Below, in pieces: positions 6,541-64,000 of a DNA stretch of 64,000 nucleotides. The DNA is taken from assembly GCA_938015595.1 (NCBI GenBank), contig CALLPI010000015.1, positions 60,138 through 124,137 of the forward strand. Reading direction: 5' to 3'. The notes beneath the pieces are model-generated. The model was not told where the DNA came from and did no database searches. It saw only the letters and a program-made list of their open reading frames with translations. The first letter of the stretch is position 1, and each line of letters begins with the position of its first letter. Origin of the DNA: an uncultured Saprospiraceae bacterium. Its GTDB lineage: Bacteria > Bacteroidota > Bacteroidia > Chitinophagales > Saprospiraceae. The position numbers and the translations under genes were made by a program.

Positions 6541-8010
6541 CTAAAACCGGAACCCTAGCGTCATTACAGCCAAACTGCGTGTACTACGCGAACTCACTAC
6601 CTGCTCAGGCGCCTGCGCTGTGAGGTAAGGACGATAAAGTTGATCCAGAACTGCATGGCGATAGGCTACATCTAAAAAAAACATTTCTGCTCGAATACCA
6701 AAGCCGCCGCTTAGGGAGACATTCGGCGAAGTGGCTTCCTTCAAGCCTGCAGAGCTTACACCTATCCCTGTACGAAAGCGAAATCTGTTGTGAGCATACT
6801 CGCCGCCTAGCCGCAGATTGAGCGCAGAGGCCAGCCGGTCGGCTATACGCTGGTTGGCATCTTCTTCATCCTGAGGAAAATCGCGAAAGCGCAACTTGGC
6901 GCGGCCATAATGAACGTACTCGGTTTCGGCAGAGATGAAGCCCTTTTTGCCAATAATCATAGCGGCATGACCTAAAAATCGCCAGGGCGTGACGAGCGTG
7001 TAGCGGAAGTTGCCCTCGGGAGAGCGGCCCGTGCCAGTTTGTGCTTGGCCTGATTCGGTATAGTTGTAGGTTATTTGCGAAGAGTAGTTGTCTTCCAGGC
7101 GCAATCGCGTAGGTGTATGCACAGCTGCGCCCAGGCGAAACATTTGTACCGGACGTATTACTACACCTACTTTGGTATTAAACCCCACACCGTTAGTGCG
7201 CAAGTTTTCTTCGTACTGTAGGTTGTCAAAGAAAGGTATGGCGCTGTCGAGGTCGTCTTCATCGTAATTTTTAATTTCGCTGTAGCGCACGCTGGGCAGT
7301 CCAATAGAGGCGCCAATCATCAATACGTCTTTGTAGTTGGCGCCGAAGGCCATGACCAACTCCTGCATGGCGCCCGAGGTATTGATGGTTTGCTTGCGGC
7401 GGATGATGGCGTCGGGTGCAAGCTCTACATCGGAGTCATAGAAGCCATCGTTGTTGAAGTCATAAATAGCACCAGCATCAAAGGCAGGCCCAGCCTCTAG
7501 TTGATCCAGCCCAGTAGATGAGTTGGCAATTTCCTGAAAACGGTCAATGATAGAGCCTCTTGAATTACCCTCAAAATAGAACTGGCGGTTGAAATTTTGA
7601 ATTCGATTAACACCCAGGGCGAAGTTAAAGGCGCGCCAGTCGGGGCCGCTCGGGTCGGAGGTGAACACTATGCCTACGTTGCCAAAGTGTAAATTGCCTT
7701 TGCTCTCGGAAATCTCGCTGTTGCCCTGGCCAGAAAGCAGCGTGCTTCGCGTATTGGCCAACAGAAACCCCGGTGTAAAAGTGATTTCACCCTTGCGGTA
7801 CCAAGCCAACCCCGCAGGATTAACCGCCGCTACAGAAAAGTCAGCACCCAGTGCGCCCATAGTACCGTGTACTCCAATAGCCCTAGCAGAGCCCTCAGGA
7901 TTGAAGCTGGAAAAACGTAGGGCGTCATTGGTGCCTTGAGCAAGGAGGAAATTTGGGCAGGCCATCCAGACCATGAAGAAGATACCGATCCAATACGTGC
8001 GTTTGATCAT
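6541..8010 (-). CDS. FadL/OmpP1-type outer-membrane beta-barrel protein
   Basis: A 489-residue secreted barrel. It has a signal peptide (MIKRTYWIGIFFMVWMACPNFLLAQ), then the motif FSSFNPEGSARAIGVHGTMGALGADFSVAAVNPAGLAWY. The ARA-G..GAlGaD...NPAGL pattern is shared by FadL-like and PorV-like Bacteroidota outer-membrane proteins. The rest is a series of alternating amphipathic strands ending in an aromatic C-terminus (SLAVMTLGFRF), typical of BAM-inserted barrels. FadL family members carry long-chain fatty acids or other hydrophobic compounds across the outer membrane; the substrate here is unknown. It converges with the LEA-like gene (15 bases apart) and lies downstream of the terminator that ends the upstream minus-strand gene, so it probably has its own promoter within 8011-8100. 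Confidence 0.82.
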   Translation of the reverse strand: MIKRTYWIGIFFMVWMACPNFLLAQGTNDALRFSSFNPEGSARAIGVHGTMGALGADFSVAAVNPAGLAWYRKGEITFTPGFLLANTRSTLLSGQGNSEISESKGNLHFGNVGIVFTSDPSGPDWRAFNFALGVNRIQNFNRQFYFEGNSRGSIIDRFQEIANSSTGLDQLEAGPAFDAGAIYDFNNDGFYDSDVELAPDAIIRRKQTINTSGAMQELVMAFGANYKDVLMIGASIGLPSVRYSEIKNYDEDDLDSAIPFFDNLQYEENLRTNGVGFNTKVGVVIRPVQMFRLGAAVHTPTRLRLEDNYSSQITYNYTESGQAQTGTGRSPEGNFRYTLVTPWRFLGHAAMIIGKKGFISAETEYVHYGRAKLRFRDFPQDEEDANQRIADRLASALNLRLGGEYAHNRFRFRTGIGVSSAGLKEATSPNVSLSGGFGIRAEMFFLDVAYRHAVLDQLYRPYLTAQAPEQVVSSRSTRSLAVMTLGFRF

Positions 8011-8102
8011 GGTTGAAGAGGTTGTGTAAGGTGCGCCAGGGACATTCTTCGAATCCCGGTTCCCTTGCGCCAGAAGTTAAAAGGCAATGCTTACAGGCAA
8101 AT

Positions 8103-8146
8103 AAAAAAAGTGGGCGGAAGTTATGTTAAGCAACCGTTCCGCCCAC
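8103..8146 (-). terminator. Rho-independent terminator after the aromatic-rich secreted gene
   Basis: Read on the minus strand: a perfect 10-bp stem GTGGGCGGAA / TTCCGCCCAC with a 17-base loop, followed directly by seven T residues. It lies about 45 bases beyond the stop of the gene at 8193-9422 and upstream of the FadL-like gene, so it separates the two transcripts. Confidence 0.85.
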
Positions 8147-8192
8147 CCTTTCTGCAAAGATATTCATCTACAGAATTATGCATAACAGAGAT

Positions 8193-9422
8193 TTAGTTGC
8201 CTCGGGTACGCGTGGCGCCACTGCTGGGCGTAGCGCTGCTACCTGAGCTGGGGGATGTGCTGCGCGAAGGCGCATCATAGCTACGCGAAGGCGTGGTGTT
8301 GTAATTACGAGAGGGTGTATCGTAGCTGCGCGAAGGCGCATCATAGCTACGCGAGGGCATAGGCGTTTCTCTGCGAGGGGCAGGAGCTGTTTCTCTCGAA
8401 GGTGCAGGAGCAGTGCGCGTGGGCGCGTCATAGCGCGAAGGTGGATTAGCGCGCGTGGGAGGCGTATCGTAAGATGGGCGATCATATGTGCGGGTGCGCT
8501 CAGATGCCGGTGCTGTACGCACAGGAGGAGTATCGTAGGTGCGAGTGCGCTCCGTGCCGGCGTCGCGTACTGGCGTAGTGGCGGTGCGTGTTCTTTCTAC
8601 AGTGGGGTTGGCTGCGCGGGGTGCCTCTAGCGAGCTGATGCGCGTACGCGGTGCGCCAGTGCGCGGATTGGCTACTGCATCAGTATTGCGCGGGCCGTAG
8701 TAAGTGCTATTGGGGTTGGTGTTGTTGTTGTTGATGACATTCACGGTATTGTAGGGGATGCCTGCACCCCAAGACGGCGGGCAGTAGTAGTTAGATACAA
8801 AGCCTCCGCCCACACCATAGAAGTTATTAACAGCAAAGTTATTAGCAAAGGATGGGCCAAGCCACGGATCCCAGTTGTTCCAGTCCCAGTTGTTTACGCG
8901 ATTCCAGCCCCAGGCCCTATAAAAGGGCGTGTAAGGTTGCCATCCCCAGGTGGCGAAAGTGTTGAAGCGGTTCCAACGGTTCCAGCGGCGCCAGGAGTTA
9001 AAAGCGCTGTAGGAGTAGAAGTTGTCATAAATGAGTACCGTAGCACCGGGAGTAAATACTGGGTCATAATAGTACAGATCTACGTAGTATGGGTCAAAGT
9101 AGTTGAACCCATAGAGCGGGCGGTTGAAGCGGCGAATGCGCGAAGTGTAGTAGTAGTCGTATTCATTATCGTCGGCAGCAGCAGGAGAGCCGAAGTCATA
9201 GCTGCTATCGTCATACGTGTAATTGTAGCGATTGCCAGTAGTGCTGCTAGAGGGTGCAGTAAAGGCATCGTTGCTGCGCGAGTAGCGACTGCCTTTGGAA
9301 TAAGTGGAAGGCGCATCTCGATTGGGATCGAAATACACGTCGTCGTACTGAGCTTGTGCCAGTGTAAAAGTCAAGGCTGCCAACGCGAAGCTAAGAATGA
9401 GGGTTAATTTGTTGATTGCCAT
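8193..9422 (-). CDS. Low-complexity secreted protein: Tyr/Trp/Asn-rich core, Arg/Ser/Pro repeat tail
   Basis: A 409-residue protein that I do not recognise as a characterised family. A clear signal peptide (MAINKLTLILSFALAALTFTLAQAQ) is followed by three parts. Residues about 26-100 are Ser/Tyr/Asp-rich. Residues about 100-245 are extremely aromatic and Asn-rich (YDNFYSYSAFNSWRRWNRWNRF; WGWNRVNNWDWNNWDPW). Residues about 255-409 are Arg/Thr/Pro/Ser-rich with imperfect short repeats (ERTRTYD, SRSYDAPSRSYDTPSRNYN). There is no T9SS sorting domain, lipobox or barrel signature. Composition resembles adhesive or structural matrix proteins, but that is only analogy. A strong terminator follows it. 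Upstream on the minus strand, TTTG-N18-TAGCTTTA is a possible promoter near 9436-9470. Confidence 0.78.
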   Translation of the reverse strand: MAINKLTLILSFALAALTFTLAQAQYDDVYFDPNRDAPSTYSKGSRYSRSNDAFTAPSSSTTGNRYNYTYDDSSYDFGSPAAADDNEYDYYYTSRIRRFNRPLYGFNYFDPYYVDLYYYDPVFTPGATVLIYDNFYSYSAFNSWRRWNRWNRFNTFATWGWQPYTPFYRAWGWNRVNNWDWNNWDPWLGPSFANNFAVNNFYGVGGGFVSNYYCPPSWGAGIPYNTVNVINNNNTNPNSTYYGPRNTDAVANPRTGAPRTRISSLEAPRAANPTVERTRTATTPVRDAGTERTRTYDTPPVRTAPASERTRTYDRPSYDTPPTRANPPSRYDAPTRTAPAPSRETAPAPRRETPMPSRSYDAPSRSYDTPSRNYNTTPSRSYDAPSRSTSPSSGSSATPSSGATRTRGN

Positions 9423-9459
9423 TGTAGTCGTTTTTTTTGAAGGTAATTACCTAAAGCTA

Positions 9460-9493
9460 TTTGCTGTTTACAACACGCAAATTACTACTTTTG
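9460..9493 (+). promoter_or_regulatory. Putative Bacteroidota-type promoter for proS
   Basis: TTTG at 9460-9463, a 22-base spacer, then TACTTTTG at 9486-9493, matching the TTTG/TAnnTTTG elements of the primary Bacteroidota sigma factor. It lies about 100 bases upstream of the proS ATG in the divergent region shared with the aromatic-rich gene. Confidence 0.5.
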
Positions 9494-9596
9494 CGCGCAT
9501 TTTTTAGTTAAAACTGATTTAAACCCGTCGGAGTACACTGTTAAAATTGTTAACAACTGCGAATCCGGCTGGTTTCAGCGCCTCAAAGTTAAAAAA

Positions 9597-11063
9597 ATGG
9601 CCAAAGAAATTACTCGGAGGAACGAAGATTACTCACAATGGTATCTTGATATTGTCAAAAAAGCCGATCTGGCCGACAACTCCGCCGTGCGGGGCTGTAT
9701 GGTCATCAAACCGTACGGATTCGCCTTGTGGGAGAATATGCGCGACCAATTGGACCGCATGTTCAAAGCTACCGGCCACGTCAACGCCTACTTTCCCATT
9801 TTCATCCCCAAGAGTTTTCTTAGCAAAGAAGCCGAACACGTAGAGGGCTTTGCCAAAGAATGTGCCGTAGTAACCCACCACCGCCTCATGAACGACCCCA
9901 ATGGCAAGGGGGTAGTGGTAGACCCCTCGGCCAAGCTCGAGGAAGAACTCATCGTGAGGCCTACATCCGAAACCATCATTTGGAGCACCTACCGCAATTG
10001 GATCAGCTCGTATCGCGACCTCCCCCTGCTCATCAACCAGTGGGCCAATGTAGTACGCTGGGAACTGCGCACCCGCATGTTTTTGCGCACCGCTGAGTTT
10101 TTATGGCAAGAGGGCCACACCGCCCACGCCACTCGCCAGGAAGCTATTGACGAAACTCTGCTCATCCTGGACGTATATGCCCGCTTCGCCGAGGAGTATA
10201 TGGCCATGCCTGTCATCAAGGGCGTGAAAACACCCAATGAGCGCTTTGCTGGCGCCGACGAAACCTACACCATCGAAGCGCTCATGCAGGATGGTAAAGC
10301 CCTTCAAGCCGGCACTTCGCACTTTCTGGGGCAAAACTTTGCCAAAGCCTTTGATGTCAGGTTCCTCAATGAAAACAACATAGAGGAGTACGTCTGGGCT
10401 ACATCCTGGGGCGTATCCACCCGACTCATCGGCGGTCTGATCATGGTACATTCCGACGATGATGGGCTGGTACTGCCACCTCGTATCGCGCCATTACAAG
10501 TGATGATTGTACCCGTGCCCAAGCCGGCGCCTGAACTCAACGAAGCAGCCCAGCAAATCATGCGTGCCTTGCAGGCTAAGGGCATCTCCGTGAAATACGA
10601 TACCGACGACCGCAAGCGCCCGGGCTTCAAATTTGCCGAACACGAAATGCGCGGTGTACCCGTACGCCTGGCCATAGGCATGCGCGACTTGGAGCAAAGG
10701 CAGGTAGAAGTAGCTCGCCGCGATACCAGAGAGAAGACCCTCCAGCCCATCGAAGGTATCGAGCACCATGTGGCTCAATTGCTGGAAGATATTCAGCAAA
10801 ACCTCTATCAAAAAGCACTAACCTACCGCAACGAGCACACTACCCGCGTGGATACCTTCGAAGAGTTTCAGCACGTGCTCGGTACCAAAGGGGGGTTTAT
10901 CTCTGCCCACTGGGATGGTACAACTGAAACCGAACTGAAAATTAAAGAGCTAACTAAAGCCACCATTCGCTGTATTCCGCTGGATGCCCAGGACGAACCC
11001 GGCAAGTGCGTGCTAACTGGCGCGCCCAGTCAACGCAGGGTGCTCTTTGCTGTGGCTTACTGA
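9597..11063 (+). CDS. proS: Prolyl-tRNA synthetase, archaeal/eukaryotic-like type
   Basis: ProRS charges tRNA-Pro with proline in the cytoplasm. The 488-residue length, the absence of the large editing insertion and the C-terminal extension identify the short archaeal/eukaryote-like class common in Bacteroidota. Class II motifs are visible: [38 protein letters not shown] near the N-terminus, [27 protein letters not shown] (motif 2 and following), and [29 protein letters not shown] (motif 3). An anticodon-binding domain follows ([10 protein letters not shown] onward). The tail [30 protein letters not shown] retains two Cys but not a full four-Cys zinc site. Its last 7 bases overlap the convergent creD 3' end. 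Confidence 0.96.
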
Positions 11064-54541: not shown

Positions 54542-54691
54542 CAAAGAAGAGTTCGTACACAAAGGAAGCAAAGGTCGCAAAGTTTAGTAGCGCTGTGCTT
54601 GCGCTGTTTTTCGAGCAGAGGAGTGCAAAGGCCATCCGCCTACTGCTGGCTGCTCATTGACTTGAATACTTCACCAAAACCGCTTTTTACA

Positions 54692-57637
54692 ATGAAAAAT
54701 CTTACGTCCCAATTGCTGCTGTGGGCCTTGCTACTGGCGGCGTCTCTCGGTGCGCTCCAGGCGCAAACACTAGAGTCTTTTCAGACGCGCCTTCAGCAGC
54801 GCGAAGCTACCTACATTCCTATGCTTCGCAGCAAAGCGGCAGGTCTAGACGCTCCTACCCTACCTCTATTAGAATACACGCCGGAGCCGCAACAGCGCAC
54901 TTGCCACACTATGCATGCCGATGCTGACCTGCGCGCTCACTACCCCCAGCTTGGCACACTCGACGATTTTGAAGCCGCTATGCAGATGCACTTGGGCGTG
55001 TATTCGAACCAAGTAGAAACTCGCGACCCGCAGGCTAACATCATCACCATACCTATCATCGTACACGTAGTACACAACGGCGAACCCGTAGGCACGGGCG
55101 CCAACATCAGCGCTGCGCAGGTGATGTCACAGATTGCCGTGCTCAACGAAGACTTTGGCCGTACTGGCGCAGGCTTCAACGATCATCCTGCCGGCGCCGA
55201 TACTGAAATTCGCTTTGCGCCTGCCCTGCGCGACCCCAACGGCAACCTCCTGGCTGAGCCTGGCATCCGCCGCGTCAATGGCATGCGCGCCTTCTGGACC
55301 TACGATGCTATTCAGGCTACCCTCAAGCCCAATACCATCTGGGATCCTAACCGCTACCTCAATGTGTGGACGGTGCAATTTGGTGGGGCAGACCAAGGAT
55401 TGCTCGGCTACGCCCAGTTCCCCAGTTTTTCTAACCTCCCGGGGTTTGAGCAAAACGAAGGTCCAGCCAGTACCGATGGCGTAGTCATTCGATGGCAAAC
55501 CTTTGGCCGCACCGGCAACGTACAAGCGCCCTACAACCGCGGGCGCACCACCACCCACGAAATAGGCCACTGGCTGGGTTTGCGCCATATATGGGGCGAT
55601 GGTGGCTGCGGTGTGGACGACTTCTGCACTGACACGCCCACTTCTGGCCAGCCCAATTACAACTGCGTGGCCGTAACCAGCTGCGGCAGCCCTGATATGA
55701 TTGAAAACTATATGGACTACTCCCAGGACGCCTGCATGAATATTTTTACCCAGTGCCAAAAGGAACGCATGCGCACCGTGCTCAACAACAGCCCGCGTCG
55801 CAAGGAACTGCGCAACTCCAACGTACACATCAATACCGGCGGTAACCCCATGGCGCCAGTAGCACAGTTTACGGCAAATCGCACCAATATATGCTCCGGG
55901 CAAAACATTATCTTCACCAGCCAGTCCACCAACAATCCCACTACCTATACCTGGCGAATTTTTGACGAAGACGGCATGCTGCTCAACACCTTTAACGGCC
56001 CCAGCCTAAATCTTACCTTCAACACGCAGGGTATTTATAGCATAGAACTCAGCGTGAGCAATGCCGCCGGCACTAGCACCGTACGCCGCGAAAACTTCGT
56101 CACGGTACTGTCTGCTACTACCTACACCCAACTCATTGAAGATGCCGAAAACCTCAGTACAGCCTTTCGCGACTGGCTGCTATACAACCCGGATGCCGAC
56201 CGCACTTTTGAGTACGCCAACGTCAGTTCCTTCGGTATGGGCGTGCGCAGCATCCGGTTTGACAATTACAGCACCGACGACGATCCTTCCGGCACAGTGG
56301 ACGCGCTGGTTAGCCCGGCCATCAACCTGAGCAATAACCCCAACCCCTACTTATATTTCGAGCATGCTTACGCCCAGTATGATGGCGAGTATTCCGACAC
56401 GCTGGTGTTGTTTTACTCTACCGACTGCGGGGCGACTTTTACCCCTTTTTGGTTTAAAGGCGGTAGAGAATTAGCCACCGCGCCGCCCACTACCAACGCC
56501 TTTGTGCCCAGTGCCAACCAATGGGCTGCTAACCAGATCAGCCTGGGATTCCTGGCTGGGCAGCCTAGGGTACATTTCCTGATTGCCAATTTCTCCGGTT
56601 GGGGCAATAACCTGTATCTCGATGAAATCTCGTTTGTAAATGCTCAGAACTTCACCAATGGCCCGCCGCAACCCAACCTATATACCGCTCGCCGCGCGGT
56701 ATGTGCTGGCGAAACCATATTATTTGAAGATATTTCCTCCAACTTCCCACGCCAGTGGCAATGGCAGTTTCCCGGAGGTACGCCTTCTACTTCTACTGCC
56801 CAGCATCCGCGCGTGCAATACGATACTCCCGGCACATACTCTGTTGGTCTGGCGGTGTCTAACAACCTGGGCAGTAATGCTGGCACCGCTCAAAACTACA
56901 TCCAAGTACTGGCACTACCCAATATTTTGGTCACAGCCAGTCAGTTGCCTGCATGCGGAGGGACGCCCGTAACGCTTATCGCCTCTGGAGCCAGTACATA
57001 CGAGTGGTACGACCAACGCAGTGGCAACCTCATTTTTGAAGGTGATCAACTCACCGTGCGCCTGTATAGCGATTGGGACTTTGTAATCATCGGAACCAAT
57101 AGCGCGGGGTGTAGTCATGCAGTATCGCTCACAGTGCCGGTCAGTGGGCCACCAGCGCCTACCATCACCCAAAACGGCAACATTTTGACCAGTAGCACGG
57201 CCACGGCTTACCAATGGTACTTTAATGGCAATACCATTCCGGCCAACCAAGGCGGTACATCGCAATCCATACAGGCGCTGGCTTCGGGGGTATATGTGGT
57301 GCAGGTATTCAATGCGGCAGGATGCTCTAGCCTGTCTAATCCGTTCCAGCTCACTTCTACGAGTAGCAGCAGTGTACAAGATATCAGCCAAGCCATGTAC
57401 GTGTTTCCCAACCCCAGCCAGAGTAGCCTGCAAGTGTCCTTGGTGCATGCGGCGCGTGGTGCGTTTGGCCTGGAATTGCACAACATCCTGGGACAATGCG
57501 TGTACCGAGAACAAATCCAAAAAGACGGCGAGCAGTTAGAGCATCGCCTCGATATTGGCACTCTGCCCGTCGGGGTGTACTGGATTTCGCTGCGCCACGC
57601 CCAGTATCGCGGCGTAGTCAGGGTGGTGAAGGAGTAG
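54692..57637 (+). CDS. Secreted M43 (cytophagalysin/pappalysin-like) metalloprotease with T9SS sorting domain
   Basis: A 981-residue exported protease. Signal peptide MKNLTSQLLLWALLLAASLGALQAQ, a propeptide, then the metzincin zinc motif HEIGHWLGLRH (residues 289-299), followed by CGVDDFCTDTPTSGQPNYNC and the Met-turn ENYMDYSQDACMNIFT. PKD-like modules follow (NICSGQNIIFTSQSTNNPTTYTW; QWQWQFPGGTPSTSTAQHPRVQYDTPGTYSVGLAV), with a beta-sandwich containing YFEHAYAQYDGEYSDTLVLFYSTDCG. The type A sorting domain MYVFPNPSQSSLQVSLVH...LPVGVYWISLRHAQYRGVVRVVKE closes it. It is probably exported by T9SS as an extracellular endopeptidase for protein degradation. ATG 54692 is chosen over the track's 54599, which starts upstream of the signal peptide. 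Confidence 0.95.
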   Translation: MKNLTSQLLLWALLLAASLGALQAQTLESFQTRLQQREATYIPMLRSKAAGLDAPTLPLLEYTPEPQQRTCHTMHADADLRAHYPQLGTLDDFEAAMQMHLGVYSNQVETRDPQANIITIPIIVHVVHNGEPVGTGANISAAQVMSQIAVLNEDFGRTGAGFNDHPAGADTEIRFAPALRDPNGNLLAEPGIRRVNGMRAFWTYDAIQATLKPNTIWDPNRYLNVWTVQFGGADQGLLGYAQFPSFSNLPGFEQNEGPASTDGVVIRWQTFGRTGNVQAPYNRGRTTTHEIGHWLGLRHIWGDGGCGVDDFCTDTPTSGQPNYNCVAVTSCGSPDMIENYMDYSQDACMNIFTQCQKERMRTVLNNSPRRKELRNSNVHINTGGNPMAPVAQFTANRTNICSGQNIIFTSQSTNNPTTYTWRIFDEDGMLLNTFNGPSLNLTFNTQGIYSIELSVSNAAGTSTVRRENFVTVLSATTYTQLIEDAENLSTAFRDWLLYNPDADRTFEYANVSSFGMGVRSIRFDNYSTDDDPSGTVDALVSPAINLSNNPNPYLYFEHAYAQYDGEYSDTLVLFYSTDCGATFTPFWFKGGRELATAPPTTNAFVPSANQWAANQISLGFLAGQPRVHFLIANFSGWGNNLYLDEISFVNAQNFTNGPPQPNLYTARRAVCAGETILFEDISSNFPRQWQWQFPGGTPSTSTAQHPRVQYDTPGTYSVGLAVSNNLGSNAGTAQNYIQVLALPNILVTASQLPACGGTPVTLIASGASTYEWYDQRSGNLIFEGDQLTVRLYSDWDFVIIGTNSAGCSHAVSLTVPVSGPPAPTITQNGNILTSSTATAYQWYFNGNTIPANQGGTSQSIQALASGVYVVQVFNAAGCSSLSNPFQLTSTSSSSVQDISQAMYVFPNPSQSSLQVSLVHAARGAFGLELHNILGQCVYREQIQKDGEQLEHRLDIGTLPVGVYWISLRHAQYRGVVRVVKE

Positions 57638-57731: not shown

Positions 57732-60641
57732 CTATTTCTTCAAGGCGTCCCGAATCCGCTTGGCCACAGTGCTGAGCGCTTCCTCGGGATTGTCCCACAG
57801 GCTGACGGCTTTCAGGCGCCCATCGGCGTCCTTGGGGACGATTTCGAAGTCCTGAACTTTCATCTCTTCTCCTTGCGATGAGGCGGCGACGCCGGGCAAG
57901 GCGCCTAAATCCATCGGCTCGATGAGCAGCGGAATGAACTGCTTCTTTTTCTCTAAAAAGCCTTTGATGGCGGGTTTCAGCTCCTTGTCCCAGATGTAAT
58001 CTGAGGCGATGGCGTCGGCGGAGAGCAGGAGGATGAACACGTCGGCTTCTTTCAGCTTTTGCTGGATGACTTCGTCCCACTGCTCGCCGGGCAGGATTTC
58101 CTGGTCGGTCCACAGCTCCACGTCGTCGGAGCGGCGCAAGCCGCTGAGGTGCACCCGCAAGCGGTGAAGCCACTCGGTGTTTCGGTGCGAGTAGGACAAG
58201 AACACCCGCTTGGCGCGGCGCGGCGGGCGCGGCAGCAGCACTTCAAAGCGCCGGATGAGCAGCGTTTGCTCCTGACCCGCCTTGTCCTTGCCCGGGATTC
58301 GGATGTGCCCGCGCTCCGCGGCTTGGCGCAATGCGGCATATTTCACGAAGTAGGCGCCGTCGTAGGAGACATCCATCCTGGGCGCCGCCTTTTCATCCAA
58401 CCTAAGGATTGGGATGCTCGCAGGCGCCTCATCTTCCGTGGGCGCCGCTTCGGAAGACTTGCTCATCTCCGAGCCTTTTGTGCTCTGCGGCTGTGCCGCT
58501 TCTATTTTTCCTTGCAGAAAATGCTTGCATTGCGCAAAAATCTCTTTTTGCAGTTCCAGCGCTTCGCGCTTGCCTTCTGCGGCGCCCTCCACGCCGATCA
58601 GGAGCACGCCGTCGTGTTCGTTTTCGGCGGGGTACAGCCCTTTGAGCAATACCCGCAAGCCGTTTTTCAAAAAAACGATGCCGTGCTTCCAGAAGTGCCG
58701 CGCCTCTGAGCGCTCCTCCTGCGCATAGTGCAGGATGAGGCGGTGCATCAGTTTTTTGTAGTGAAACAGCGGCACGCGCAGCCAAAAAGCCGACTGCCAG
58801 ACTCCCTGCGCCGCAATGCGGAGCAAATCTTCTATCGGGTGCTCGTCGGGCAGGTACTGCGGAGCCACGTACCAGCCCTTGCGCAGCGGATGCGGGAAGA
58901 TCAGCTCCAATTGCTTGGCGACATCGAGAAATACCTGCTTGAAATCGCCTACGCTGCCGAGTTCGTCCGGATGAAACTCACCTCCCTTTGCCAGCACTTG
59001 TTGGTTCAAAATGTCGTGGATGCGCCGGGTCAGCTCGGCGGGCTTCAAAAAAACGCGGTTGCGAAGGGCTTCGGATTGCTCGAAAAACGCCACCACGCCG
59101 CCGCGATGGAAGGTGCGGGGCAGGTCTTGCGGTTCGAGACCGGTAGCCCTGCCCATGATTTTAGCCGCGGCTTGCTCGAATTCGCCGAGCCAAACGGAGC
59201 CGTCTTCTTTCAAATACTCTTGAAAAGGGTTGTCGTTCTCTGAGTTTCCTTCTTGCAGGTCGAGGATGCGCTGCCGCACGGTGAGCCAAATGGGAGGTAA
59301 CGAAGCGCTGTCGGCGGCTTCGGCGATGGCCGCCTCCAGTTCGCGCTCGAAGAGCCGGAGGGCTTGCTGTTGGCGGGGGTGCTGCGGGTCGCAGCCTTGG
59401 CAGAGGCTGATGTGCAGCGATTCGCGGATGCGGTAGTCGTCGTGGAGCGGCTGGTCGAGGCGGCGTTTGCCCGCTCCGAGGTCGGTTTTGTTTTGCACCA
59501 CGAGGAGCGGGGCGTTGTTGCGCTCGCCGGCGTAGTGCTGCACGGTGTCGAGCCAGTAGCGAAGTTCGAAGTGTTCCAACGGCACTTTGGCTTCGCCGGT
59601 ACGCAAGCAAGTGTCTTGGCGACCGTTGAGGTTGGTGGCGGCATCCCAGAGCAGCAGATAGACGGCGTTGTCGCTCATGAAGAGCCGGTAGGTCTCGTGG
59701 TAGTATTCCTGCCCGCCAAAATCCCACACGCTCACTGCCACGTCTTGGAGTAGAGGAAAGCGTTCGGAGTTGGGCAGCCAGCGGTGCACCTTCAGCCCGT
59801 GCGTGCTGTCTCTTTGATCTAAATAATCTCCCGTCTGCAAGTAGTGCAGCAGCGTGGTCTTGCCCGCATCGCTGTTGCCCAGCAGGATGAGCTTGACGTC
59901 GCGGCGGGTATCAACGTCTTTGGGCAGTGGCTTTTCATCCGGTAGCGCATCGAAATATTGCCTGAGCAGTTCAATGTTGCGCTGCTGATAGATGTCCGCA
60001 GGGCAGTCTTCGATGGGGCACCCATCCACACGGAAAACCCGCAGCGCCTTCATCTCCTTGAGCGGGCGTATTTTTTTTACCTGGGTGTCGGAGCAGTAGA
60101 GCTCTTGCAACTGGGTCAATTGGCTGAGCGGGCTGAGGTCGCTCACCCGGGTGTCGGAGCAGTCGAGTTTTTGCAACTGGGTCAATTGTCTGAGCGGGCT
60201 GAGGTCGCTCACCGAGGTGATGGAGCAGTAGAGCATTTGCAACTGGGTCAATTGTCTGAGCGGGCTGAGGTCGCTCACCAAGTTGTTGGAGCAGGTGAAC
60301 GTTTGCAAATGTGTAAGTTTGCGGAACAGGAAGAGGTCAGACAGTGACCATGGATTAAATTCATCACCGATGAATAACTTTTTCAAGCCTTTCAGTAGGG
60401 CAAGGCGTGCGGGCAGCGCTCTGAGGCGGTTTTTTTCGCCTTTGTTCTGGCTTATTTTTTCTACCCATTTTTTTTGCTCCTCGTCGTATTCCTGCCACCT
60501 GTTGCTCAGGATGAGGGTTTCGAGCCAGGTGCAGTCGCCAATCTCGTCGGGCAGGTGGGTGAGACCGCAGTTGCCGAGGTCGAGCACAGGGTTTCGGGTT
60601 TGCTTGTTTTGTTTGATGAGTTGGAGGGCGAGTTCGGACAT
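57732..60641 (-). CDS. LRR-Roc-COR-TIR protein (Roco family GTPase with TIR effector domain)
   Basis: A 969-residue multidomain protein. Residues about 18-215 are leucine-rich repeats, including three nearly identical 22-residue units (VSDLSPLRQLTQLQ). Residues about 247-440 are a Ras-like Roc GTPase: P-loop GNSDAGKT at 255-262, DFGGQ at 307-311 and NKTD at 384-387. Residues about 480-720 fit a COR dimerisation domain (VWLGEFEQAAAKIMGRATGLEPQDLPRTFHRGGVVAFFEQ...VAPQYLPDE). After a linker, residues about 809-945 form a TIR domain: RVFLSYSHRNTEWLHRLRVHL, DDVELWTDQEILPGEQW and SADAIASDYIWDKEL with the likely NAD-processing Glu887. This links a sensor, a nucleotide switch and an effector in one chain, as in innate-immune receptors. 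It has no same-strand partner: the neighbour upstream is divergent and the one downstream convergent. Function in phage defence or signalling is inferred. Confidence 0.93.
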   Translation of the reverse strand: MSELALQLIKQNKQTRNPVLDLGNCGLTHLPDEIGDCTWLETLILSNRWQEYDEEQKKWVEKISQNKGEKNRLRALPARLALLKGLKKLFIGDEFNPWSLSDLFLFRKLTHLQTFTCSNNLVSDLSPLRQLTQLQMLYCSITSVSDLSPLRQLTQLQKLDCSDTRVSDLSPLSQLTQLQELYCSDTQVKKIRPLKEMKALRVFRVDGCPIEDCPADIYQQRNIELLRQYFDALPDEKPLPKDVDTRRDVKLILLGNSDAGKTTLLHYLQTGDYLDQRDSTHGLKVHRWLPNSERFPLLQDVAVSVWDFGGQEYYHETYRLFMSDNAVYLLLWDAATNLNGRQDTCLRTGEAKVPLEHFELRYWLDTVQHYAGERNNAPLLVVQNKTDLGAGKRRLDQPLHDDYRIRESLHISLCQGCDPQHPRQQQALRLFERELEAAIAEAADSASLPPIWLTVRQRILDLQEGNSENDNPFQEYLKEDGSVWLGEFEQAAAKIMGRATGLEPQDLPRTFHRGGVVAFFEQSEALRNRVFLKPAELTRRIHDILNQQVLAKGGEFHPDELGSVGDFKQVFLDVAKQLELIFPHPLRKGWYVAPQYLPDEHPIEDLLRIAAQGVWQSAFWLRVPLFHYKKLMHRLILHYAQEERSEARHFWKHGIVFLKNGLRVLLKGLYPAENEHDGVLLIGVEGAAEGKREALELQKEIFAQCKHFLQGKIEAAQPQSTKGSEMSKSSEAAPTEDEAPASIPILRLDEKAAPRMDVSYDGAYFVKYAALRQAAERGHIRIPGKDKAGQEQTLLIRRFEVLLPRPPRRAKRVFLSYSHRNTEWLHRLRVHLSGLRRSDDVELWTDQEILPGEQWDEVIQQKLKEADVFILLLSADAIASDYIWDKELKPAIKGFLEKKKQFIPLLIEPMDLGALPGVAASSQGEEMKVQDFEIVPKDADGRLKAVSLWDNPEEALSTVAKRIRDALKK
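60105..60302 (-). repeat. Three 66-bp near-identical tandem units encoding leucine-rich repeats
   Basis: Units start at 60105, 60171 and 60237. On the plus strand the first 43 bases are identical in all three copies except one position (base 19 of the unit); the remaining 23 bases vary and encode the residues on either side of the CS doublet (LYCSITSV, LDCSDTRV, TFTCSNNLV). A fourth, diverged unit begins at 60303. The conserved frame with variable surface residues suggests recent duplication or gene conversion. Confidence 0.92.
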
Positions 60642-60969
60642 GGCGGCGCCGGGTGGGTTGTCTTTTTTGAAGATAGCGGGTTGCGGGAGGGCTTTTTGGA
60701 GCGTTCGCCCAACGGGAAGCGGTTTTTTCTTCTCAGGAGGGGCGCTTTTGCACGCGCGAATGCATGCTCAGCGGCAAAAATGAGGGGCTGTCTCTGTACT
60801 TTTTATAGTTGCGTTTGTATTTTTTACAGGCGATAATCCTTTTTTTTCAAAAAAGCAATGATCAATTATTTTTTAAATGAGGACAAGTGTCATGTTGGCT
60901 TTGGCGCGTACTCCCGCACCTTTGGGTGTGTTATTTTTCTCATGGTTCAAACTAAAAATATCTGTGTGT
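60642..60969. other. Divergent intergenic region, Roco-TIR gene / CstB-like gene
   Basis: About 330 bases without a called gene. Homopolymer runs (T8 near 60840) and a possible TTTG at 60814 are present, but no complete TTTG/TAnnTTTG pair could be assigned for either gene. The track's extended start at 60877 for the plus-strand gene translates to sequence unlike the family. Confidence 0.5.
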
Positions 60970-62382
60970 ATGAAGGTAGAACAATTGTATACCGGTTGTC
61001 TGGCGGAAGCCGCCTACTACATCGAAAGCGAGGGAGAAGCGGTCATCATTGACCCGCTGCGCGAGGTAGCGCCGTACATCGAGCGCGCCGAAAGAGACGG
61101 GGCCAAGATCAAGTACGTGCTGGAGACGCACTTTCACGCCGACTTCGTGTCGGGGCATTTGGATTTGGCCAAGAAGACGGGGGCGAAAATCGTCTATGGC
61201 CCGACGGCGAAGCCCAACTTTGAGGCATACATCGCTCAAGACGGCGAAGAGCTGCCGGTAGGGAAGGTAAAAATCCGCGTTTTGCACACCCCGGGGCACA
61301 CGATGGAGTCGTCGTGCTTTTTGTTGCTCGACGAGAACGGCAAGGAAGTAGCCGTTTTCACGGGCGACACACTGTTCATCGGCGATGTAGGTCGTCCGGA
61401 TTTAGCGGTGAAGTCGGACTTGACGCGGGAGGATTTGGCGGGCTATCTGTACGACTCGCTGCGCTCGAAGATTATGACGCTGCCCGACGATGTGCGCGTT
61501 TATCCGGGGCATGGGGCGGGTTCGGCATGCGGCAAGAAGATGGCTAAGGAGACGGTTTCGACAATTGGTCAGCAAAAGCAGTTGAACTACGCCTTGCGGG
61601 CCGACATGACGCGCGAGGAGTTCATCCGCGAAGTAACGACGGGCTTGGTGGAGCCTCCGCAGTATTTCCCGAAGAATGCCGTGCTCAACCGCATGGGCTA
61701 CGAGAGCATTGACGAGGTATTGCAACGCGGGGTTCGTCCGCTGTCGGTAGAGGAATTTGTGGCGGTGGCGGAGGTGGAAAACGCTCTTATTTTGGACACG
61801 CGCTCGGAACAAGAGTTTGTCAAGGGGTACATTCCCGGCGCTGTTTTCATTGGGTTAGACGGCCAATTTGCCTCTTGGGTGGGTACGCTCATTCCCGATC
61901 TACAACAGCCCATATTGCTGGTGTGCCCGGCTGGTCGTGAGGAGGAAGCGGTAACGCGCTTAGCGCGGGTGGGCTACGACAACGCGCTTGGCTATCTGAA
62001 AGGCGGCTTTGCCGCGTGGCAGGCTGCTGGGAAAGATATAGACAGCATCGAAAGCATCAGCGCAGAGACGTTCGTCAGCCGCATGAAGGCCCCCAACGCG
62101 GTAGTGCTCGATGTGCGCCGCAGGAGCGAGTACGAAACCGAACACGTCATCGGTGCTCAGAACTTCCCACTCGATTTCATCAACAAAAACATGGCGGAGC
62201 TGCGCCAAGACGTCCAGTACTTGGTGCATTGCGCAGGGGGCTACCGCTCCGTCATCGCCATCAGCATTCTCAAAAACCGCGGGTTCGACAACATGGTCAA
62301 CGTAGAGGGCGGCTTCAAGGCCATTAAGGCGACCGGCAAAGTGGCCTTGTCGGAGTATCGCGAACAGATCACCGAGCTGTAA
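60970..62382 (+). CDS. CstB-like persulfide dioxygenase fused to two rhodanese domains
   Basis: A 470-residue sulfur-metabolism protein. Residues about 1-245 are a metallo-beta-lactamase-fold dioxygenase of ETHE1/CstB type: iron-site motif THFHADFVSGH, then LHTPGHTMESS, FTGDTLFIGDVGRPDL and YPGHGAGSACGKKM, whose Cys matches a reactive Cys known in CstB. Two rhodanese domains follow (about 265-365 and 375-465), with loops VCPAGREEEA and HCAGGYRSV, so both retain a Cys. The family oxidises persulfides to sulfite and transfers sulfur, giving thiosulfate and detoxifying sulfide. Start chosen at ATG 60970 (MKVEQLYTGCLAEAAYYIES). A strong terminator follows, so it is monocistronic. Confidence 0.93.
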   Translation: MKVEQLYTGCLAEAAYYIESEGEAVIIDPLREVAPYIERAERDGAKIKYVLETHFHADFVSGHLDLAKKTGAKIVYGPTAKPNFEAYIAQDGEELPVGKVKIRVLHTPGHTMESSCFLLLDENGKEVAVFTGDTLFIGDVGRPDLAVKSDLTREDLAGYLYDSLRSKIMTLPDDVRVYPGHGAGSACGKKMAKETVSTIGQQKQLNYALRADMTREEFIREVTTGLVEPPQYFPKNAVLNRMGYESIDEVLQRGVRPLSVEEFVAVAEVENALILDTRSEQEFVKGYIPGAVFIGLDGQFASWVGTLIPDLQQPILLVCPAGREEEAVTRLARVGYDNALGYLKGGFAAWQAAGKDIDSIESISAETFVSRMKAPNAVVLDVRRRSEYETEHVIGAQNFPLDFINKNMAELRQDVQYLVHCAGGYRSVIAISILKNRGFDNMVNVEGGFKAIKATGKVALSEYREQITEL

Positions 62383-62419
62383 GGGCTAGCTTCAATGCCG
62401 AGAGGTGTAAGGCATCGAA

Positions 62420-62451
62420 GGCCATCGGAGGTATTGCTCCGGTGGCCTTTT
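62420..62451 (+). terminator. Rho-independent terminator after the CstB-like gene
   Basis: An 11-bp stem GGCCATCGGAG / CTCCGGTGGCC (one G-U pair) with a 6-base loop, followed by TTTT. It lies 38 bases beyond the stop codon. Confidence 0.85.
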
Positions 62452-62591
62452 GCATAGGCGAAGAGCAGCCCGATGTGCCCTTATTTTGTACCTCAGCGCC
62501 GTTTAAACGGATGCGTTGTAGGCGGGTCTTAAGGATATTCCGCTTTTGCGGCCATTGCCGGAAGGGGAGTTTTGGAGAAAAACTCGACGCC

Positions 62592-64000
62592 ATGAAGAAG
62601 AATACTTTGATTTTCGGACTGTTGGTTGGAGCCATCTCTTGGGCTTGGGGGCAGGTGGTGGTCAACACCGCTCAGGGTGCTGTTCAGGGGTTGGTTCAGG
62701 ATGGCGTTTATGCTTTTTTGGGCATTCCGTACGCGCGTCCTCCGGTGGGGGCGTTTCGCTGGGCGCCGCCGGAGGCGCCGTTGGGGTGGTCGGGGGTTCG
62801 GCTGGCGCAGGTTTTTCCGCCGGCGTGCCCGCAAAAGGAATTTGCTCCGGGCGATACGGTCGGCAAGGCGATAGGTCAGGAGGACTGTCTGTACCTCAAC
62901 GTCTGGACGCCCGACTTGAGCGGTCGGCTGCCGGTGATGGTCTTTGTTCACGGGGGCGGCAATCAGCAAGGCGCTACGGGACAGGTTAGCGGCGGTGCGC
63001 GTCTCTATGAGGGCAAGAACTTAGCCAAGCGGGGCGACGTAGTGGTGGTTACTCTTCAGTATCGGCTTGGGGCGTTAGGTTTTATGGTGCATCCGGGTTT
63101 GGAGGCGGAGAGCGCTTGGGGCAAGGCGGGCAACTACGGTGCCCTCGATCAGGTGGCTGCGCTACAATGGGTGCAGCAAAACATCGAGGCTTTTGGCGGC
63201 GACCCTGCGAGGGTAACGGTTTTTGGCGAAAGCGCCGGCGCGGTCAATGTGGGCAATCTGCTGGTCATGCCGGCGGCTCGAGGGCTTTTTCACCGCGCCA
63301 TTTTGCAGAGCGGCTCGCCACGCCTCAAAGACTATGCTACTGCGCGCGCTGAGGGTGTCGCCTTCGCCCAAAAACTCGGCGCCGCCGGCACTGCTGCGCA
63401 GCAAGTGGCCTACCTTCGGGCGTTGCCGGCCGACTCGCTGGTCAGCGGCGACTCCAGCCCCATTGCAGGCAACGGCCTTACGCGGGCGCCGTGGCAGCCG
63501 GTGTTGGATGGCTATTGGTTTCCGCAAAGCCCTTTCGAGGCCATACAAAGCGGCCAGCACCACCGCGTGCCGCTCCTTGTTGGCTCCAACAGCGAGGAAA
63601 TGAGCCTCTACGCGCCTGCAGTAGTAACCCCCCAAATGTTGCAGGCGTTCGTGCAAGCTACTATACCACCCTTCTACCGCCCTCAGGTGCTGGCCGCCTA
63701 CCCGCCCGGCACGACCAACGAGCAGGCGCGCGCCGCCTACGTGGCTTTGGTCAGCGACCTGCAGTTTACAGCCCCAGCGCGGCGCGTAGCCGATTGCATC
63801 AGCAAAAACCAAACAGAACCCGTCTGGCGCTACTTCTTCACCTTTCGCCACACCGTGCCCCTCTTGCAGCCCTTCGGGGCCTATCACGGCATGGAGCTGT
63901 TCTACGTGTTTAACACCTGGGAAAATGCTGCGCTCGGCAGCGGACCGCTCTTCCGGCCCGCCGACGACAGCACGCAGCAAAACGCGCTGCGCTATTGGAC
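62592..64000 (+). CDS. Exported type B carboxylesterase (3' end cut by window edge)
   Basis: About 469 codons are visible; the gene runs off the right edge and is missing from the ORF track in this frame. Signal peptide MKKNTLIFGLLVGAISWAWGQ. The alpha/beta-hydrolase family motifs are present: DGVYAFLGIPYARPPVGAFRWAPPE, EDCLYLNVWTP, VMVFVHGGGNQQG (oxyanion hole), and the nucleophile elbow VTVFGESAGAVNVG with the catalytic Ser; the acid appears as SNSEEM and the His near YHGMELFYVF. These enzymes hydrolyse carboxylic esters; a secreted form likely acts on external esters or drugs/xenobiotics. It follows the CstB-like terminator by about 140 bases and is probably transcribed alone. Confidence 0.93.
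   Translation, partial: MKKNTLIFGLLVGAISWAWGQVVVNTAQGAVQGLVQDGVYAFLGIPYARPPVGAFRWAPPEAPLGWSGVRLAQVFPPACPQKEFAPGDTVGKAIGQEDCLYLNVWTPDLSGRLPVMVFVHGGGNQQGATGQVSGGARLYEGKNLAKRGDVVVVTLQYRLGALGFMVHPGLEAESAWGKAGNYGALDQVAALQWVQQNIEAFGGDPARVTVFGESAGAVNVGNLLVMPAARGLFHRAILQSGSPRLKDYATARAEGVAFAQKLGAAGTAAQQVAYLRALPADSLVSGDSSPIAGNGLTRAPWQPVLDGYWFPQSPFEAIQSGQHHRVPLLVGSNSEEMSLYAPAVVTPQMLQAFVQATIPPFYRPQVLAAYPPGTTNEQARAAYVALVSDLQFTAPARRVADCISKNQTEPVWRYFFTFRHTVPLLQPFGAYHGMELFYVFNTWENAALGSGPLFRPADDSTQQNALRYW

Follow-up and report, generated by a model that had tools for sequence, protein, structure and literature searches.

A single-chain LRR-Roc-COR-TIR protein as a probable stand-alone conflict receptor of bacteria

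Structures of bacterial Roco proteins are used to model LRRK2, the Parkinson's protein, yet to our knowledge no function of these proteins has been established. In the literature searched, which includes few subscription journals, we found neither published experiments on any bacterial Roco protein in defence nor an experimentally established function of any bacterial Roco. The closest described systems are those of Kaur et al. (2021, eLife; PMC8195603), who reported prokaryotic AP-GTPase (Roc) and COR proteins with rapidly evolving N-terminal leucine-rich repeats (LRRs) and at least 24 different interchangeable C-terminal domains, TIR included. They predicted a role for these proteins in conflict with invaders, tied such systems to a multicellular habit, and listed 11 paralogues in Haliscomenobacter hydrossis, a member of the Saprospirales according to the taxonomy line of its record. 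The nearest solved structures belong to the Roco protein of Chlorobaculum tepidum (6hlu, 8r4b, 3dpu). Free of nucleotide, this protein forms a dimer; with GTP it becomes an extended monomer, its LRR swinging by about 135 degrees (PMC11052575).

We analyzed a 64,000-nt stretch of DNA (the window; all coordinates are positions within it unless another record is named) that encodes an LRR-Roc-COR-TIR protein, here called Roco-TIR. Its features are listed in Table 1. The four domains make up one polypeptide. Pfam matches for LRR_4 (2e-23), Roc (4e-19), and TIR_2 (1.3e-15) were above the gathering score, while COR-A (4e-5) fell under its cut-off (24 vs 35.3 bits). We nevertheless consider the COR domain genuine, because both a profile and a fold search matched RocCOR. 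A profile built from 24 members aligned with C. tepidum Roco (6hlu) over profile positions 91-780, spanning LRR-Roc-COR (E=2.6e-163), and the RocCOR tandem 3dpu matched the full-length AlphaFold2 model with a TMt of 0.71. That model had a mean pLDDT of 82.5, and its top match in the PDB was again 6hlu (Foldseek E=2.6e-31). The predicted COR sits directly after Roc, and the small ordered module that precedes the TIR in the models is possibly the remainder of COR-B.

Table 1. Features of the Roco-TIR gene and its product, with residue ranges and window coordinates.
Feature	Position	Strand	Basis
Roco-TIR gene	57732..60641	-	ORF call; ATG start; 969 aa; coordinates stop-inclusive
LRR, aa 16-215 (sensor)	59997..60596	-	Pfam LRR_4; strands and helices of the model
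Three near-identical 66-bp LRR units, aa 125-190	60072..60269	-	Hypervariable mainly at concave-face codons
Roc GTPase, aa 245-445	59307..59909	-	Pfam Roc; model
P-loop GNSDAGKT, aa 255-262	59856..59879	-	Motif read; conserved in 24-member alignment
G3 motif DFGGQ, aa 307-311	59709..59723	-	Motif read; alignment
G4 motif NKTD, aa 384-387	59481..59492	-	Motif read; alignment
COR (COR-A about aa 450-600, COR-B core about aa 601-710)	58512..59294	-	Sub-threshold Pfam COR-A; model; 3dpu fold match; 6hlu profile
Linker, aa 711-750, low-confidence, probably disordered	58392..58511	-	Single very-low-confidence stretch of the full-length model, pLDDT <50 at 713-749
Small ordered module preceding TIR, aa 752-806	58224..58388	-	Full-length and TIR models
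TIR, aa 810-969 (effector)	57735..58214	-	Pfam TIR_2; PADLOC ThsB 6.9e-20; fold
Glu887 codon, at the catalytic-Glu position of enzymatic TIRs	57981..57983	-	Invariant in 24 homologues; aligns with the Glu of Cat1

The original prediction, made from the sequence, had claimed these four domains and an intact P-loop, DFGGQ, and NKTD. Pfam, profile, and fold searches recovered every domain. The checks proposed with it gave a 3dpu-like RocCOR fold and a TIR fold in structure prediction, and Roc and TIR above cut-off in HMM searches, with COR-A below it but clear with the 24-member profile. The G1, G3, and G4 motifs typical of Roco proteins are at the expected residues of Roc, and none of the 24 homologues deviates at G255, G260, K261, T280, or the DFGGQE core. 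A sensor, a GTPase switch, and a TIR domain are thus joined in one chain, as had been proposed. What did not survive is the novelty of that joining. An N-terminal LRR, AP-GTPase, COR, and C-terminal effector in a single polypeptide is the architecture of Kaur et al. (2021; PMC8195603), from which this protein does not differ, and because the counter-invader role was also predicted there, neither idea is new.

The gene stands alone, also as predicted. A convergent gene for an M43-like, T9SS-tagged protease (54599-57637) lies on one side and a divergent MBL-fold/rhodanese gene (60877-62382) on the other, and none of the adjoining genes is a same-strand partner that could form an operon with it. 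The TIR belongs to the fold family of Thoeris ThsB and other defence TIRs; in contrast to Thoeris, however, the sensor is within the same polypeptide and no ThsA-type gene adjoins the TIR gene, the neighbours being the protease and MBL/rhodanese genes. Plant TIR-NLRs (RPP1, RPS4) and bacterial STAND/NLR-like proteins likewise combine an LRR or other repeat sensor, an NTP switch, and a TIR in one chain, but here a Ras-like GTPase plus COR, not a STAND ATPase, does the switching, and the domain order is reversed. The LRR-Roc-COR core resembles that of C. tepidum Roco in both sequence and fold; that protein is described as LRR-Roc-COR only, with no TIR reported. LRRK2 and DAPK share the Roc-COR core and have a kinase where this protein has its TIR.

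The right end of the contig (57640-64000) holds the Roco-TIR gene, the MBL/rhodanese gene, and a carboxylesterase-like gene. Near 57.7 kb, GC content rises from about 0.48-0.57 to mostly 0.57-0.64 over the rest of the contig. The last 3.2 kb (60801-64000) are about 99.5 per cent identical to a genome assigned to another genus (G328), and elsewhere in the host genome the MBL/rhodanese gene has two more copies, both diverged. The M43 gene on the opposite flank finds its closest match within the genus of the host. The Roco-TIR gene and its right flank therefore look foreign to the host genome, most simply because they were transferred very recently or because the contig end is chimeric. Under either origin the Roco locus diverges faster than its flank, since Roco sequence just past the 99.5 per cent region is only 86-94 per cent identical to G328. 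In that genome a CusB-like gene adjoins the Roco gene on its 3' side, provided that two contig-end pieces form one gene.

We compared the three 66-bp units of the window gene (consensus LSPL[RS]QLTQLQxLxCSxTxVSD) with those of G328 (the same as G102; loci L117 and L050, with the array region at L117 8208-8880), for a total of eight full units. At the amino-acid level, thirteen of the twenty-two unit codons are invariant across all eight, and the four most variable (codons 12, 14, 17, and 19) are all x positions of LxxLxLxxNx, that is, on the concave face. Mean pairwise amino-acid difference across the eight units is 0.65 at the six concave positions and 0.065 elsewhere. This excess gave an exact subset P of 3e-4 for the eight units, 4e-5 for G328 alone, and 0.02 for the window gene alone, in a small sample in which the units of one gene are not independent. 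With the single unit of a full-length, 85 per cent identical homologue (L040) included, concave positions have a pN/pS of 4.6, against 0.8 for the rest. Unit number changes as well, from one in L040 to three in the window and at least five in G328, where the contig ends inside the array, and the three genes share no unit with one another. Fast change at the exposed LRR face, concave diversification at the level of the unit, and change in unit number are what is new here.

The rapidly evolving LRRs of the Kaur et al. (2021) systems are thus found in the window gene. Among 57 distinct Roco ORFs, eleven (the window gene included) had usable near-identical units; pooled, these gave a weaker effect, with a pN/pS of 0.81 at concave positions vs 0.32 elsewhere, which points to relaxed constraint but an average not above 1. 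As a rule for all Roco ORFs, LRR diversification therefore holds only in part. A diversity-generating retroelement is an unlikely source, because the host genome has no RVT_1 (PF00078) match and no second copy of the LRR unit that could serve as a template repeat, and we discarded it. We suggest tentatively, and at somewhat under even odds, that the recognition surface of this bacterial LRR is remodelled rapidly, much as in hypervariable NLR/VLR arrays, through gain and loss of 66-bp units and diversification of concave codons, so that relatives with about 99.5 per cent identical flanks differ in unit number and share no unit. Diversifying selection on the concave face, if true, would be a bacterial parallel to the hypervariable immune receptors of plants and animals.

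Matches to Roco-TIR were found in 57 of the 101 genomes searched, a count that takes in single-domain matches (TIR or LRR alone); some genomes had at least fifteen. A scan of named genomes identified 57 loci, most of them from Saprospiraceae or other Bacteroidota, and the close homologues are labelled Saprospiraceae. The C-terminal slot of these relatives is occupied by TIR, EAD11+TIR, EAD1+CHAT, CHAT, caspase C14, SIR2_2, EAD7, or EAD1, the variable effector slot of the Kaur et al. (2021) systems. Distribution is patchy. Among 398 genomes of the host's family, only about five matched the 5' part of the gene closely at the DNA level, and the flanks of L040 differ from those in the window. We also considered phage-borne homologues, but among the matches listed these covered only query residues 94-239, in the LRR, in records filed as Listeria phages.

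We next looked at genomic context, comparing 120 neighbour proteins of sixteen chromosomal homologues with 108 control proteins. The neighbours are mostly housekeeping. Stand-alone ThsB/TIR-like proteins were slightly in excess (5/120 vs 0/108), and apart from this there was no enrichment of defence genes around the sixteen chromosomal copies. The survey had been proposed as a check of the original prediction, and on this result we dropped the defence-island argument for the window gene. Plasmid relatives present another picture. Two plasmids of H. hydrossis carry Roco loci (L212, NC_015512.1; L213, NC_015511.1). On pHALHY02 the COR protein adjoins BrxC and DUF1788 (BREX) genes and DUF4433/macro (DarTG-like) genes, and on pHALHY01 it adjoins type I restriction-modification genes. 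Both proteins end in EAD11, not TIR.

Within the bacterial LRR-AP-GTPase(Roc)-COR-effector family, Roco-TIR is best explained as an NLR-like conflict receptor that works alone and uses TIR as its effector, a reading to which we give a probability of about 0.6. It agrees with the effector swap, the patchy distribution, and the settings of relatives on plasmids and in defence islands. Of the self-contained defence or death device first proposed, the single chain, the isolated gene, and these features of the relatives speak in favour, while its own locus has no defence-island signal. Also counting against a conflict receptor are the mostly housekeeping chromosomal neighbours, the EAD11 ends of the defence-island relatives, the modest TIR fold scores, and a Glu887 that is not diagnostic (both below). 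Some of the same observations could be read differently. The protein might be a regulated switch for cell death or development that is not directed at phage, its LRR reading a self or neighbour signal (kin recognition or stress) and its TIR causing growth arrest in filamentous or aggregating bacteria. This would suit a family rich in paralogues (sixteen or more matches in one genome), chromosomal copies without defence-gene enrichment, and the link to a multicellular habit drawn by Kaur et al. (PMC8195603). Rapidly changing LRRs and exchanged effectors are typical of conflict, however, and with plasmid relatives in defence islands we consider such a switch unlikely.

Whether the TIR is itself an enzyme bears on a second alternative. 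A TIR-only model (pLDDT 92.3) matched SPARTA TIR-APAZ, C. elegans TIR-1, SARM1, RPP1, and AbTir; the top matches (SPARTA, TIR-1, SARM1) are enzymatic TIRs, at moderate scores (query TM about 0.5). PADLOC matches were likewise to TIR-type models (ThsB and, at 2e-9, SAVED-TIR), plus a weak bSEFIR. The 'catalytic-type Glu' of the original prediction is in place at residue 887, as in enzymatic TIRs, but that aligned stretch contains a Glu in TLR1, TLR6, and a TLR15/2 entry as well. Since these non-enzymatic TLRs share it, the residue is not diagnostic of an NADase, and judged by sequence NADase activity is compatible with it, not proven. The TIR could then serve in assembly or as an adaptor, with no enzymatic activity, and recruit another TIR or effector encoded elsewhere, and the protein would not be self-contained. 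The TLR precedent, three further TIR_2 proteins encoded by the host genome, and the stand-alone TIR genes near some homologues would agree with this, but the enzymatic character of the best fold matches and the invariance of Glu887 across 24 homologues make it a little less probable again than the developmental switch. Last, a role in ordinary intracellular signalling unrelated to immunity, in keeping with the housekeeping neighbours and with the lack of an experimentally established bacterial Roco function in the literature searched, is highly improbable given the toxin-type effectors in the relatives' C-terminal slot and the patchy distribution.

For the conflict receptor, we infer recognition, NAD+ cleavage, and cell death in the following order. 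The LRR would recognise a protein that comes from an invader or is linked to damage. This binding, together with GTP exchange, would then swing the LRR off Roc-COR and change the dimer state, by analogy with C. tepidum Roco. The TIRs, behind a flexible linker of roughly forty residues, could come together in an NAD+-cleaving arrangement, and NAD+ cleavage would lead to growth arrest or death of the infected cell. TIR enzymes, NADases among them, generally act as assemblies. Because GTP makes C. tepidum Roco monomeric while TIR NADases generally need assembly, two alternatives suggest themselves: the apo/GDP dimer may be the TIR-active form, or the TIRs may drive a separate higher-order assembly. 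How a monomerising switch might turn on a TIR is a real and testable question. In a TIR-bearing Roco, NAD+ loss would be a direct readout of GTPase-cycle control over an attached effector, and such a protein would make it testable whether Roco proteins originated as immune switches, as has been proposed.

Several other Roco loci were seen along the way. In Photobacterium toruni (L218, NZ_CP101696.1 181804-198640) a COR (Roco) gene at 7746-10484 sits within a Tn7-like type I-F CRISPR-associated transposon, in its core, with tnsA/TniB-type genes on one side and tniQ-csy2-csy3-cas6f on the other; like the H. hydrossis plasmids, this setting counts towards the conflict reading. At an Acaryochloris locus (L220, NZ_CP071723.1; 7370-10161) LRR and COR are encoded by separate genes and a DUF4062 gene comes next, which may be the Roco-effector design spread over several genes; a recent report describes DUF4062 as a TIR-like NADase family (PMC13174449). 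No clear defence neighbours were present at the other plasmid relatives inspected. A related Roco gene at L131 9780-11580 (G041:C21) has an in-frame stop and frame breaks and is apparently a decaying pseudogene, and it too contains near-identical LRR units.
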